64,000 bases of DNA from Candidatus Methanoperedens sp. GTDB lineage: Archaea; Halobacteriota; Methanosarcinia; Methanosarcinales; Methanoperedenaceae. The position numbers were made by a program, and so were the translations under genes. Of the stretch, positions 15,837-61,787 are shown in pieces. The notes beneath the pieces were generated by a model. The model saw nothing but the letters and a program-made list of their open reading frames with translations. It had not been told where the DNA came from and did not search any database. The stretch spans positions 62,001 to 126,000 of the forward strand of contig JAPZAS010000024.1 of the NCBI GenBank assembly GCA_027460525.1, given 5' to 3'. Within the stretch, counting starts at the first letter, position 1. Every line of letters begins with the position of its first letter.

Positions 15837-15916
15837 CCCGAGTCGCGCCTCGGGAGGGCGCAGACACGTATGCCCCGCAGGCATACGTGGATTCCCGCTC
15901 CCGAAGGGTAATCGGG
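15837..15916. repeat. Composite palindromic module inserted in methyltransferase copy 1
   Basis: Absent from the paralogous copy at 17521, where the flanks join directly. It consists of CCCGAGTCGCGCCTCGGGAG (a hairpin also found, inverted, at 61240), the hairpin CACGTATGCC-loop-GGCATACGTG shared with 24712, 24895, 28899 and 28945, and CCCGCTCCCGAAGGGTAATCGGG. Length 80 bp is not a multiple of three, so it also shifts the frame. Confidence 0.75.
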
Positions 15917-31798: not shown

Positions 31799-31800
31799 AA

Positions 31801-32120
31801 AACTTTAAGAAAGTTTTATCAAAACGAAGGGGACGAACTTTAAGAAAGTTTTATCAAAACAAGAAGGACTGAACTTTAAGAAAGTTTTATCAAAACAAGA
31901 AGAACTGAACTTTAAGAAAGTTTTATCAAAACAAGAAGAACTGAACTTTAAGAAAGTTTTATCAAAACAAGAAGGACTGAACTTTAAGAAAGTTTTATCA
32001 AAACAAGAAGGACTGAACTTTAAGAAAGTTTTATCAAAACAAGAAGGACTGAACTTTAAGAGAGTTTTATCAAAACGAGGGGGACTGAACTTTAAGAAAG
32101 TTTTATCAAAAAGAGGGGAA
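31801..32120 (+). repeat. Nine tandem 36-bp units of the AACTTT palindromic module
   Basis: Units begin at 31801, 31836, 31872, 31908, 31944, 31980, 32016, 32052 and 32088; the first is 35 bp, the others 36. Each starts with the hairpin AACTTTAAGAAAGTT followed by TTATCAAAAC and AAGAAGGACTG-like spacer. Read in frame 3 the unit encodes NFKKVLSKQEGL, and the frame continues into the acetyltransferase. Confidence 0.9.
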
Positions 32121-32561
32121 CCGCAGATCTGCCTTGCAAAGAAGGAGGATTTTGACGAGATTTGGAGTCTTGAGGAGATATGTTTTAAAGAGGAAACATT
32201 CAACAAAAAGCAGTTAAGATATCTTTTCTTTAAAGCCAAGTCCACTGTTCTTGTTGCTTTGATGGAAGGCAAGCTCATCGGGTCAGTCATTATTTTATTG
32301 AGAAATCATATCGCCAATGCCAGGATATATTCATTGAACGTGCATCCTGCGTACAGGCGCGCTGGTGTTGGAAGCTTGCTTATGGATACAGCCCTGAAAA
32401 TTTTAGAAGAAAAGGGGTTTAAGAAGATAACCCTTGAGGTGGGGATTAATAACAACGCAGCTCAGAACCTGTACAGGTCGAAAGGCTTTATCATGGATAA
32501 AATTCTCTATAATTATTATAAAAGCGGCGATGATGCGTTCCATCTTGTCAGAAAATTATGA
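31809..32561 (+). CDS. GNAT acetyltransferase with repeat-encoded N-terminus
   Basis: The core (from about 32124) is a RimI-like N-acetyltransferase: ICLAKKEDFDEIWSLEEICF, YSLNVHPAYRRAGVGSLLMDTAL (acetyl-CoA loop RRAGVG) and NAAQNLYRSKGF. The frame has no ATG, GTG or TTG between the stop at 31806 and 32256-32259, although the fold clearly begins earlier. TTG at 31795 would start it in frame if repeat unit 1 had 36 instead of 35 bp. So either the gene is frameshifted in unit 1, or it uses an unusual start. ATG 32259 would remove the first part of the fold. Confidence 0.7.
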   Translation, partial: ESFIKTKGTNFKKVLSKQEGLNFKKVLSKQEELNFKKVLSKQEELNFKKVLSKQEGLNFKKVLSKQEGLNFKKVLSKQEGLNFKRVLSKRGGLNFKKVLSKRGEPQICLAKKEDFDEIWSLEEICFKEETFNKKQLRYLFFKAKSTVLVALMEGKLIGSVIILLRNHIANARIYSLNVHPAYRRAGVGSLLMDTALKILEEKGFKKITLEVGINNNAAQNLYRSKGFIMDKILYNYYKSGDDAFHLVRKL

Positions 32562-34998: not shown

Positions 34999-35185
34999 TG
35001 AACATTAACAGCGAACTAATACGAACTCGTACGAACTCCGAGGGCGTGAGTTCGTAAAGCGACACCTCGCTTTATGAGATATAGGGTATGCAAAGCATAC
35101 CCCGCGTTTGATGGAACTTTTCCAAAGTTCCTTGATAAACCTTTTTCAAAGGTTTTTGATAAAACTTTCCTAAAGTTTTCAGTTC
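34999..35185 (-). repeat. Palindromic array related to the one at 61.1 kb
   Basis: In the gap before flpA (34883-35279, no ORF supported). Read on the minus strand, 35180 to 35054 gives hairpins AACTTTAGGAAAGTT, ACCTTTGAAAAAGGT, AACTTTGGAAAAGTTCC, GGGTATGCTTTGCATACCC and ATAAAGCGAGGTGTCGCTTTAC. Three of them occur in the same order and orientation at 61103-61172. The side at 34999-35035 is the AGTTCGTACGAGTTCGTATTAG spacer seen in the island. Confidence 0.8.
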
Positions 35186-35279
35186 GTACGAGTTAGTTGT
35201 TGATTTTTTCATACCAGACGCAAAGAACACAAAGTGAAGCATCAACAATCTTTGCGACCTCTGCGCCTCTGCGGTGAGA

Positions 35280-55633: not shown

Positions 55634-56770
55634 TTGAGTATCATGAGTCCGGTATCTGTTATAATCCCCTGCATGAACGAGGAAAAAACAATCGGGGCCG
55701 TCATTAGTAAAGCTAAATCGACCTTAATGCAGGAGGGACTGGAAGGGGAAATAATAGTATCAGATAATTCCACAGATAATTCAAGGGATATCGCCAGAAA
55801 GATGGGAGCTAAAATTATAATTCCTCAAAAAAACGGATACGGTAGCGCCTACTTGGAAGGTATCAGGCATGCTAAAGGAACATATCTTATACTGGCTGAT
55901 GCCGACGATACCTACGACCTGAAAGAGATGCCCGGGTTATTAAAACCCCTGCTTTCAGGCGAAGCCGACTTCGTCATGGGCACACGGTTGAAGGGGGAAA
56001 TCAAGAAAAACTCCATGCCCTGGCTGCACAGGTACATCGGGAATCCTTTGTTGACAGGAACCCTGAACTGGCTTTTTAAAACAAAATTGAGCGACGCCCA
56101 TTGCGGTATGCGCGCCATAACAAGAGACGCTTATGAAAAGCTTGATATGAAAAGCGAAGGGATGGAATTTGCAAGCGAAATGATAATTGAAGCTGCAAAG
56201 AAAAAACTTCGAATAACCGAAGTACCTATCACCTATTATCCAAGACAAACACCTTCCAAGCTCCACTCCTGGGGCGATGGATGGCGGCATCTGCGCTTCA
56301 TGATGCTTTATAATCCAACCCCCTTTTTCTACTTTCCGGGTTTATTATTATTCGCACTCGGCGCATTTATGACCCTTGCCCTGCGGCTGCGGGGCAATGT
56401 GGAGATAACCGGACTCCATTCCTTCATTCTGGGCAGCATGCTTGCGATAATAGGAACGCAGATGATAGCTACGGGCAGTTATATGAAAGTTTACGGAATA
56501 ATTCATAATAAAATAGAGAAAGACGGATTGACCGCAAAAATCCTGGATTATCATTCTCTTGAACTCGGGCTTGTGCTCGGGTTATTATTGTTCTTCGCAG
56601 GGATAGTTTTAGGTTCAAATATTCTCTTCAAATGGATCTCCTCAGGATATGGTTCCCTTTCAGAAGTGGGAAATGCAGTAATCTCCATGGTGCTCGCTGC
56701 GCTCGGCATCCAGATAATCTTTTCAGCGCTCATTATCAGCATTTTTATGTTAGAAAAAAAGGATACATGA
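55634..56770 (+). CDS. Glycosyltransferase family 2, dolichol-phosphate-sugar synthase-like
   Basis: A 378-aa protein with an N-terminal GT-A domain: VSVIIPCMNEEKTIGAVI, VSDNSTDNSRDIARKMGAKI and LILADADDTYDL (DxD). SDAHCGMRAITRDAYEKL follows. From residue 240 on it has four hydrophobic helices. It most likely charges dolichol phosphate with a sugar for AglB. Its TGA stop is part of the ATGA that begins the 23-bp palindromic micro-ORF. Confidence 0.88.
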   Translation: MSIMSPVSVIIPCMNEEKTIGAVISKAKSTLMQEGLEGEIIVSDNSTDNSRDIARKMGAKIIIPQKNGYGSAYLEGIRHAKGTYLILADADDTYDLKEMPGLLKPLLSGEADFVMGTRLKGEIKKNSMPWLHRYIGNPLLTGTLNWLFKTKLSDAHCGMRAITRDAYEKLDMKSEGMEFASEMIIEAAKKKLRITEVPITYYPRQTPSKLHSWGDGWRHLRFMMLYNPTPFFYFPGLLLFALGAFMTLALRLRGNVEITGLHSFILGSMLAIIGTQMIATGSYMKVYGIIHNKIEKDGLTAKILDYHSLELGLVLGLLLFFAGIVLGSNILFKWISSGYGSLSEVGNAVISMVLAALGIQIIFSALIISIFMLEKKDT

Positions 56771-56793
56771 AAAACTTTAGGAAAGTTTTATGA
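56767..56793 (+). other. 8-codon micro-ORF formed by a single palindromic module between ATGA overlaps
   Basis: ATGA at 56767 contains the stop of the upstream gene, and ATGA at 56790 the start of the next. Between them is the perfect palindrome AAAACTTTAGGAAAGTTTT (8-bp arms, 3-bp loop). Reading from the first ATG gives MKNFRKVL and a stop at 56791-56793. Removing the 19-bp palindrome and one ATGA restores a plain 4-bp overlap of the two glycosyltransferase genes. Confidence 0.8.
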
Positions 56794-60034: not shown

Positions 60035-61099
60035 ATGAAAGCTTTAATATTAAGCGGCGGCAAAGGAACTCGACTGCGACCTTTAACCTTCACCACAGCG
60101 AAGCAACTTATTCCCGTGGCTAATAAACCTATTCTTGGTTATGTCCTCGACCAAACATCCCAGGCGGGAATAAAGGATACAGGTATAATAATTGCACCTG
60201 AGACAGGTGAATATGTCAAAGACTACGTAAAAGATGGCTCTCCGTGGGGAATAAAAGTTACATATATGCCTCAAGAACCTCTTGGTCTGGCTCATGCTGT
60301 AAAAACTGCGAGAAATTTCCTGGGAAACGAATCATTCGTAATGTGCCTGGGGGATAACCTTCTCGGAAAAGGGATAAATAATCTTGTGGATAAATTTAAC
60401 CTGGAAAAACTGGACGCTTTGATATTACTCAAAGAAGTTGAAAATCCAGGCAGTTTCGGGGTAGCGGTATTAGATAAAAAAGGAAATGTCATCAAACTCA
60501 TAGAAAAACCAAAAGAACCCCCCAGTAATTTAGCATTGGTGGGGGTGTATATATTTTCTCCAAGAATCCACGAAGCTATTGAGAGAATAAAACCTTCATT
60601 GCGCAATGAACTTGAGATTACGGATGCCATACAGGAATTAATCAATATGGGATGCAATGTTAAAAGCGAGATTCTCAACTCCTGGTGGCTTGATACAGGG
60701 AAAAAGGATGATATTTTAACAGCAAACAGTATCGTTCTGGATGAATATGTTAAAAATGAAATAAATGGGAGCCTGGATAATAAAAGTAAAGTTACAGGAA
60801 GGATAAAAATCGACACGGGTACCGTTGTTGTAAACAGCAGAATCCGCGGTCCTGTAGCGATAGGTAAGAACGCTCATATTGAGAACTCCTTCATAGGACC
60901 GTATACCAGTATAGGAGATAATACTAATATTTCCGATTCATCCATTGAACATTGTGTCATTCTCAATAACGTTCAGGTCAAAGGAATAGAGAGGCTGGAG
61001 GACAGTTTACTTGGAAAGGATGCAAAAGTTTTAAAAAACCATACCGGTCATAAAGCACTTAGATTGATGATAGGGGATTATTCGGAGATAGAGGTATGA
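60035..61099 (+). CDS. rmlA: Glucose-1-phosphate thymidylyltransferase, archaeal long form
   Basis: A 354-aa nucleotidyltransferase: LILSGGKGTRLRPLTFTTAKQL (nucleotide loop), FVMCLGDNLLGKG, LVGVYIFSPRIHEAIERIKPS and SWWLDTGKKDDIL. The C-terminal 100 residues form a left-handed beta helix (NSRIRGPVAIGKNAHIENS), as in the long RmlA/RfbA of archaea and actinobacteria. It makes dTDP-glucose, the first step to dTDP-L-rhamnose. Its stop lies in the ATGA at the start of the palindromic bridge. Confidence 0.92.
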   Translation: MKALILSGGKGTRLRPLTFTTAKQLIPVANKPILGYVLDQTSQAGIKDTGIIIAPETGEYVKDYVKDGSPWGIKVTYMPQEPLGLAHAVKTARNFLGNESFVMCLGDNLLGKGINNLVDKFNLEKLDALILLKEVENPGSFGVAVLDKKGNVIKLIEKPKEPPSNLALVGVYIFSPRIHEAIERIKPSLRNELEITDAIQELINMGCNVKSEILNSWWLDTGKKDDILTANSIVLDEYVKNEINGSLDNKSKVTGRIKIDTGTVVVNSRIRGPVAIGKNAHIENSFIGPYTSIGDNTNISDSSIEHCVILNNVQVKGIERLEDSLLGKDAKVLKNHTGHKALRLMIGDYSEIEV

Positions 61100-61311
61100 A
61101 AAACTTTAAGAAAGTTTTATCAAGGAACTTTGGAAAAGTTCCATCAAACGCGGGGTATGCTTTGCATACCCCAACACAGCGTGAACCGATGTTTCGGTTC
61201 TCAAACGACGGGTATGGCACGCCATACCCGAACACGCCCTCCCGAGGCGTGACTCGGGAAGGGGTATGCGCCATACCCCTATACGTCATAAAGGGGCGTA
61301 ACCCTTTATGA
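61096..61311 (+). other. Stop-free array of palindromic modules bridging rmlA and rmlC
   Basis: A 216-bp stretch from the ATGA at 61096 to the ATGA at 61308. It is made of at least seven hairpins in a row: AACTTTAAGAAAGTT, AACTTTGGAAAAGTT, GGGGTATGCTTTGCATACCC, GAACCGATGTTTCGGTTC, GGGTATGGCACGCCATACCC, CCTCCCGAGGCGTGACTCGG, GGGGTATGCGCCATACCCC and CATAAAGG..CCTTTATG. Yet one frame stays open for 71 codons (MKNFKKVLSRNFGKV ...) and overlaps both flanking genes by 4 nt. The peptide has no known domain. I treat it as a repeat that keeps translational coupling, not as a normal gene. Confidence 0.8.
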
Positions 61312-61787
61312 GCAATTTCAAGATTGGTGAGATTAACGGCATAATTATAAAAGACTTAATAAAAAATGTGGATGATAGAGGCTGGCTGATAGAACTTTTC
61401 AGGAAAGATTTGATCGATGAAGAGCTCTTCCCCGAGATGTCTTACATATCGCTTACATATCCAGGTATTGTTAGAGGACCTCACGAGCATTCAGAGCAAA
61501 CGGATTATTTCTGTTTTATGGGGCCTTCGATTTTCAAGCTTGTGCTCTGGGATAATAGAAAAAAGTCTGAAACATATAACAATAAAATGAGCTTGGACGT
61601 AGGTGAGAATAATCCCAAAATAGTAATAGTGCCCCCAGGAATAGTGCATGCTTATAAAAATATTGGCGATAGATCTGGCATTGTAATAAACCTTCCCAAT
61701 AAGCTTTACGCCGGCTGGGGGAAAAAAGAGAAAGTGGATGAAATACGATACGAGGGCAACCCGAGAAGTCCTTTCAGGATGGAATAA
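61308..61787 (+). CDS. rmlC: dTDP-4-dehydrorhamnose 3,5-epimerase-like protein
   Basis: A 159-aa cupin of the RmlC family: GWLIELFRKDLIDEELFPEM, YPGIVRGPHEHSEQTDYF (active-site His), FKLVLWDNRKKSETYN and IVPPGIVHAYKNIG. Shorter than classical RmlC (about 180 aa) and less conserved at the N-terminus, so it may be a related sugar epimerase. Position in the rmlA-C-B-D order supports the rhamnose role. It overlaps rmlB by 1 nt. Confidence 0.85.
   Translation: MSNFKIGEINGIIIKDLIKNVDDRGWLIELFRKDLIDEELFPEMSYISLTYPGIVRGPHEHSEQTDYFCFMGPSIFKLVLWDNRKKSETYNNKMSLDVGENNPKIVIVPPGIVHAYKNIGDRSGIVINLPNKLYAGWGKKEKVDEIRYEGNPRSPFRME

Follow-up and report, generated by a model that had tools for sequence, protein, structure and literature searches.

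A palindromic repeat element of Methanoperedenaceae located on gene start codons, with a body that may act as a bridging cistron

The hairpin array between rmlA and rmlC at positions 61096-61311 (forward strand) of the 64,000-nucleotide stretch of Candidatus Methanoperedens DNA analyzed here (the window) belongs, by sequence comparison, to a palindromic repeat family that is dispersed in the Methanoperedenaceae and apparently non-autonomous. Probably the family is one that resembles the Rickettsia palindromic elements (RPEs) but favors start codons and has a body built as a bridging cistron, so that the buried gene would be translated by termination-reinitiation.

The element is a single ORF from the ATG at 61096 to the TGA at 61311, 216 nt with both ATGA copies counted, encoding 71 amino acids plus a stop (MKNFKKVLSRNFGKV...KGRNPL*). 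Its left ATGA (61096-61099) combines the stop codon TGA of rmlA with the ATG of the element ORF, and its right ATGA (61308-61311) combines the stop of the element ORF with the start of the rmlC-like gene. The flanking ORFs, also on the forward strand, are rmlA (60035-61099; glucose-1-phosphate thymidylyltransferase type, a name based on the earlier note and on reading of the sequence), which ends on the left ATGA, and the rmlC-like gene (61308-61787), which begins at the right one. Eight hairpins lie end to end in one stop-free frame of 71 codons. The left-end hairpin, AAAACTTT-AAG-AAAGTTTT (61100-61118), is the hallmark of the family and codes NFKKVL. It is followed by internal hairpins GGAACTTT/AAAGTTCC (61124-61142), GGGGTATGC/GCATACCCC (61152-61172), GAACCGA/TCGGTTC (61183-61200, read off the sequence), CGGGTATGGC/GCCATACCCG (61209-61230), and TCCCGAG/CTCGGGA with the loop GCGTGA (61240-61259, likewise read off), then by a mid hairpin, AGGGGTATG/CATACCCCT (61260-61280), the counterpart of a covarying middle hairpin in 84-nt versions of the element. 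The right-end hairpin, TCATAAAGGG-GCGTAA-CCCTTTATGA (61286-61311), is of type B and holds the rmlC start codon within its 3' arm. The stop-free array joining the two genes by ATGA at both ends, as described in the earlier note, is therefore real, and so is the claimed identity of its first hairpin with a module at 56771: a second window copy, reduced to the same left hairpin, lies at a glycosyltransferase site (56767-56793, forward strand) as ATG AAA AAC TTT AGG AAA GTT TTA TGA (MKNFRKVL*), with ATGA on both sides. The shuffle that the note had proposed, run with base pairs preserved, left frame 0 free of stops in 2.8% of cases and at least one frame free of them in 6.2%, so that the openness of 61096-61311 taken alone is mildly unusual; the strong evidence sits at the level of the family.

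A 271-nt query region matched 69 places in its own genome (2.44 Mb, 37 contigs), and 29 of 60 genomes and 3 of 16 genera overall, although in some genomes the rmlA flank alone was matched. Named carriers of the same element are the Candidatus Methanoperedens MAGs nzgw23, nzgw24, SR-VP, SRVP18, and STD1_6, and the genomes G006, G026, G025, and G016 are all placed in the genus of the window genome. These four also carry it, and G002, G003, G018, G020, and G021 do not. The left-hairpin pattern AAAACTTTNNGAAAGTTTTATCA has 28 exact copies in the window genome (G000), 31 in G006 and 29 in G026, and the reversed control pattern does not occur in these three genomes. Typical copies consist of ATGA, the left hairpin, ATCA, internal hairpin modules, and a right hairpin that ends in CTTTATGA and is of type A (CATAAAGCGAGGTGTCGCTTTATGA) or type B (CATAAAGGGGCGTAACCCTTTATGA). 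Most of these hairpin mosaics measure 84-270 nt, each genome has many of them, and the peptides they encode include MKNFRKVLSKEGYASHTLYLIKRGVAL. The flanking repeats are ATGA (4 nt) or ATGAA (5 nt) at gene starts and about 7-8 nt at ATCCGTG and ACGAACT sites.

Several other arrangements of these modules were seen. At window positions 35030-35190, an antisense copy sits within a different long palindromic repeat whose ends are ACGAACT, an arrangement shared by many Methanoperedens loci. One type of internal module, the CACGTATGSC/GSCATACGTG hairpin, also occurs singly at 15865, 24712, 24895, and 28949. Nine tandem left-hairpin units, mostly of 36 nt and with CTG in place of the element ATG, occupy 31799-32113 and read as (LNFKKVLSKQEG)n in a frame open from 31809 onward, which joins an acetyltransferase-like ORF whose end is at 32561. 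At L190:1361-1605, L255, and L256, two elements stand in series, the ATGA that ends the first being the start of the second.

Among 156 unique left-end hairpins, sampled from sequence stretches around the matches, 78 lie directly on gene starts, all in sense and none in antisense orientation. The remainder comprises 13 internal modules, 25 left ends nested in two other repeat types, and 40 others; since roughly half of this sample lies off gene starts, a start codon is not obligatory. The 78 gene-start copies fall on 47 distinct downstream genes, including argH, rtcA, ribosomal protein uL14, and rmlC. Gene calls were ORF-based in genomes that are mostly fragmented MAGs, and the names argH, rtcA, uL14, and glycosyltransferase come from reading of the downstream gene sequences. 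Roughly half of the gene-start copies share their left ATGA with the end of the upstream gene; the others separate a gene's start codon from its native upstream sequence. Shine-Dalgarno consensus matches of at least 5 bases occur just upstream of the element ATG in 24 of 78 copies, compared with 3.4 expected at random positions. Behind some copies (the "gctttcccgtATGA" site, L090), the downstream ORF is short or decayed.

The reading frame was followed in 75 copies with a start codon on the left and a gene on the right. In 62 of them the frame is open to the second ATGA overlap, and open copies are found in all three start phases (54/65, 7/9, and 1/1). Ten further copies are off-frame and stop shortly before the restart ATG, six at 9 nt and four at 19 nt, leaving gaps of 6 and 16 nt. 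When bodies were swapped among copies, the number open was 49.7 ± 2.0, with a maximum of 58 in 2000 trials, against the 62 observed. The loops follow the phase: TTT-AAG, -AGG, and -GAG are sense after ATGA, whereas after ATGAA the same loops become TAA, TAG, or TGA stops, and such loops are present in 65 of 73 copies with ATGA starts versus 1 of 11 with ATGAA or GTGAA starts. The sole shifted-start copy with a stop loop, L120, continues as ATGAAATAG and has no gene behind it; counted by site, stop loops are missing from each of the four genic sites with a shifted start (argH; L328; L244/L294; L231/L263). Body lengths also follow the phase. Three-hairpin genic copies are 76 nt long in phase 1 (29/33) and 77 nt in phase 0, and the two in phase 2 are 76 and 78 nt, the 76-nt copy (L244) stopping 9 nt before the restart; non-genic three-hairpin copies are a mixture of 76, 77, and 79 nt. 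The Fisher P for the loops is 1.6e-7 and the P for matching of phase and length is 3e-4, values that overstate independence because the copies are related by descent. Where species have a site in common, 20 of the length changes between them preserve the residue modulo 3 and 4 do not, a count that rests on lengths entered by hand and excludes one further break, that of G009 at argH.

From these loops and body lengths the element frame looks selected, and it is partly inherited together with the modules. An ordinary dispersed palindromic repeat of the MITE or REP kind offers a different account, in which openness is a by-product of GC-rich modules descended from an open founder, and the ATGA ends reflect target duplication and the survival of those insertions that keep both genes. 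Non-genic copies are built from the same modules, about half of the left ends are non-genic, and a single element is open by chance at 2.8%, all as such a repeat would predict. We nevertheless regard it as unlikely, since stop-making loops are lost according to phase, body lengths match phase, open copies exceed the body-swap null, and gene starts are occupied 78 times in sense and never in antisense, and random intergenic insertion would rarely fall exactly on a start codon; the loop-by-phase test has already weakened this account. The family supports the proposal of the earlier note that the open frame behaves as though it has to let ribosomes through, at 47 gene sites and not one. Frame breaks with the flanking genes intact, which, if frequent, the note had expected to count against it, do occur, for example in G025 at rmlA/rmlC, and most of these broken frames stop as close as 9 or 19 nt to the restart codon. 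One copy (L128:2809-3355) has an altered right end and may be fused to the N terminus of a ketol-acid reductoisomerase-like protein (MKNFRKVLSKEGDILYPLYVLKEEKKEPNMVKIFYDKD...), into which its frame continues.

Relatives provide empty and filled versions of several sites. In six relatives (G006, G007, G015, G017, G019, and G031), rmlA and rmlC have one common ATGA with nothing between, so the element doubles the ATGA. The site is filled with 216 nt in the window genome, with an 84-nt element in frame in G024 (MKNFKKVLSKEGVCAIPLYVIKGRNPL*), and with a 157-nt, frame-broken element in G025, whose ORF meets a TAA 9 nt ahead of the ATG of rmlC. G024, which is filled, clusters in the rmlA-rmlC tree with the empty G015 and G031 at full support, and therefore at least two changes are needed. 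The argH site is filled in seven species, six of them open (147 to 270 nt) and one, G009, broken in the native frame; eleven relatives in the genus are empty, and the argH tree likewise requires at least two changes. At the glycosyltransferase site, open full elements with differing bodies are present in G016 and G001 (189 and 192 nt), and other relatives are empty. The G001 copy (L356:1200-1504) has lost its left hairpin and is still open from ATGA to ATGA (MINCCVGL...RGVAL*). Stepwise growth of a module inside the junction, as the earlier note had suggested, was rejected as unsupported: a ready-made 210-nt composite, 92% identical to the window element, is present elsewhere in the same genome (C35:24238), and species carry differing ready-made mosaics at one site, which is better explained if whole elements were inserted, exchanged, or converted.

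The hairpins covary. Across 25 distinct 84-nt copies, 99.2% of cells are paired, and there are 52 double changes compared with 15.8 ± 2.7 in shuffles, none of 500 shuffles being as high. In the middle hairpin both sides have changed in six of nine pairs, and the middle codons change with them, giving peptide middles such as GYASHT, GVSQIP, GDVSHP, and GVLKEP; hence structure and openness are kept and the peptide is not. The possibility raised earlier that the peptide (MKNFxKVLS...KRGVAL or ...KGRNPL) is functional in itself fares poorly and is very improbable. Its N and C termini and its start and stop are conserved, but the conserved termini coincide with the hairpin ends and the middle varies freely, the argH copies read the same DNA in another frame (MKKLYESFIKRRGM...), and searches of Pfam and NCBIfam with the element peptides gave no match. 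Rfam at the gathering threshold detected only tRNAs in the window.

At gene starts the element lies in sense on ATGA or ATGAA, with that sequence at both of its ends, and we propose that its ORF has taken over the original start signal, a ribosome-binding site or an overlap with the upstream gene. The ribosome would melt and translate the hairpins without meeting a stop and then, at the second ATGA, terminate on TGA and restart on ATG; the downstream gene, here rmlC, would thereby stay coupled. Translation of the element, termination-reinitiation in vivo, mobilization by some enzyme, and any effect on the expression level of the gene behind are inferred. In Haloferax, coupling by termination-reinitiation works only when the two genes overlap or are separated by a very small gap; it is strongly lowered at 13-14 nt and abolished at 22-23 nt (PMC10666635). 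If an insert of 80-400 nt on a start codon were left untranslated, the downstream gene should accordingly fall silent; an insert that is itself a cistron overlapping its neighbors at both ends would avoid this, and that is the arrangement observed. Type A right ends, in 35 of 78 gene-start copies, carry GAGGTG 7 nt before the restart ATG, the motif in the loop and the ATG in the stem, and it matches the 16S-like end CACCTCCT in the window genome; the window copy, being type B, is without the motif. Placement of the ATG in the stem could make restart at type A ends depend on a passing ribosome. This hairpin, the covariation, and the existence of several sites common to species would also suit a regulatory leader, a structured ORF kept for its benefit that attenuates or tunes the downstream gene through ribosome pausing or through a hairpin holding the Shine-Dalgarno sequence and start codon. 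Such a leader is quite unlikely, because the sites are functionally mixed (argH, rtcA, uL14, rmlC, and others), the body varies from 147 to 270 nt at one site, and close relatives are empty, so that no conserved regulatory need is visible.

The bridging-cistron element has partial counterparts in known systems. The likeness to RPEs drawn in the earlier note is supported by the frame-keeping behavior at 47 gene sites: RPEs are likewise short, palindromic and dispersed, with a conserved ORF, and are read in frame where they occur in metabolic genes of unrelated kinds (PMC10969869). RPEs, of about 100-150 bp, lie within ORFs and extend the protein, whereas the present element lies on start codons as a separate cistron, complete with start ATG and stop codon, and leaves both proteins unchanged; in-frame insertion inside a gene was seen only as the possible fusion at L128. 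MITEs, including the ORF-bearing QMITE1, large BOX, and intragenic ERIC, are also small, multicopy, and non-autonomous, with short flanking repeats, and some encode peptides (PMC10969869). A clear pair of terminal inverted repeats, as in MITEs, is absent, each element end being its own hairpin and the two ends inverted-alike only in AAA(G)/(C)TTT; unlike MITEs, the element has swappable hairpin modules and half of its sampled copies on gene starts. No transposase partner was found at 12 Y1_Tnp loci. REP/BIME repeats with RAYT (a Y1 transposase) share the clustered hairpin units, but REPs are extragenic, and the two large REP superfamilies outlined in one account carry GTAG or CGTC tags (PMC3733652), in place of which the element is flanked by ATGA or other sequences. 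Borg tandem repeats occur in the same hosts and keep frame when in ORFs (PMC9879509); they are perfect, tandem, and extrachromosomal and extend proteins, whereas the element forms dispersed hairpin mosaics in Methanoperedens genomes. Ordinary ATGA-overlap termination-reinitiation pairs have the same 4-nt overlap (PMC6728339, PMC10666635), found here at both ends in 62 of 75 copies, but in this case a repeat element creates a new overlap pair around itself.

Candidates for a mobilizer were sought among Y1_Tnp (IS200/IS605, RAYT) genes, and these were rejected: of the 12 loci examined, only L349 showed element ends, and it overlaps a copy that had been recorded before. Phage and plasmid collections contained no element match. 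Three IMG/VR hits and matches in Saprospiraceae, Lactobacillus, and others had the left palindrome only, lacking right-end modules, and were therefore treated as chance. A bolder version of the proposal, in which a still-active mobile element recognizes start codons and serves as a universal bridging cistron, entering a junction or gene start, copying the ATGA, and keeping the gene translated, is possible but on the doubtful side; if it were true, essential gene starts would become safe insertion sites.

No description of this Methanoperedens element was found in the literature searched. Mobile elements are usually tolerated by avoiding genes. This family does the opposite, sitting on housekeeping gene starts and seemingly spared damage by being translated through. 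It explains small Methanoperedens ORFs that annotators might call proteins, and a start-codon-seeking enzyme, if one exists, would represent a new target preference. With insertions genome-wide and empty sites as controls, the family offers a natural system in which archaeal termination-reinitiation could be studied.
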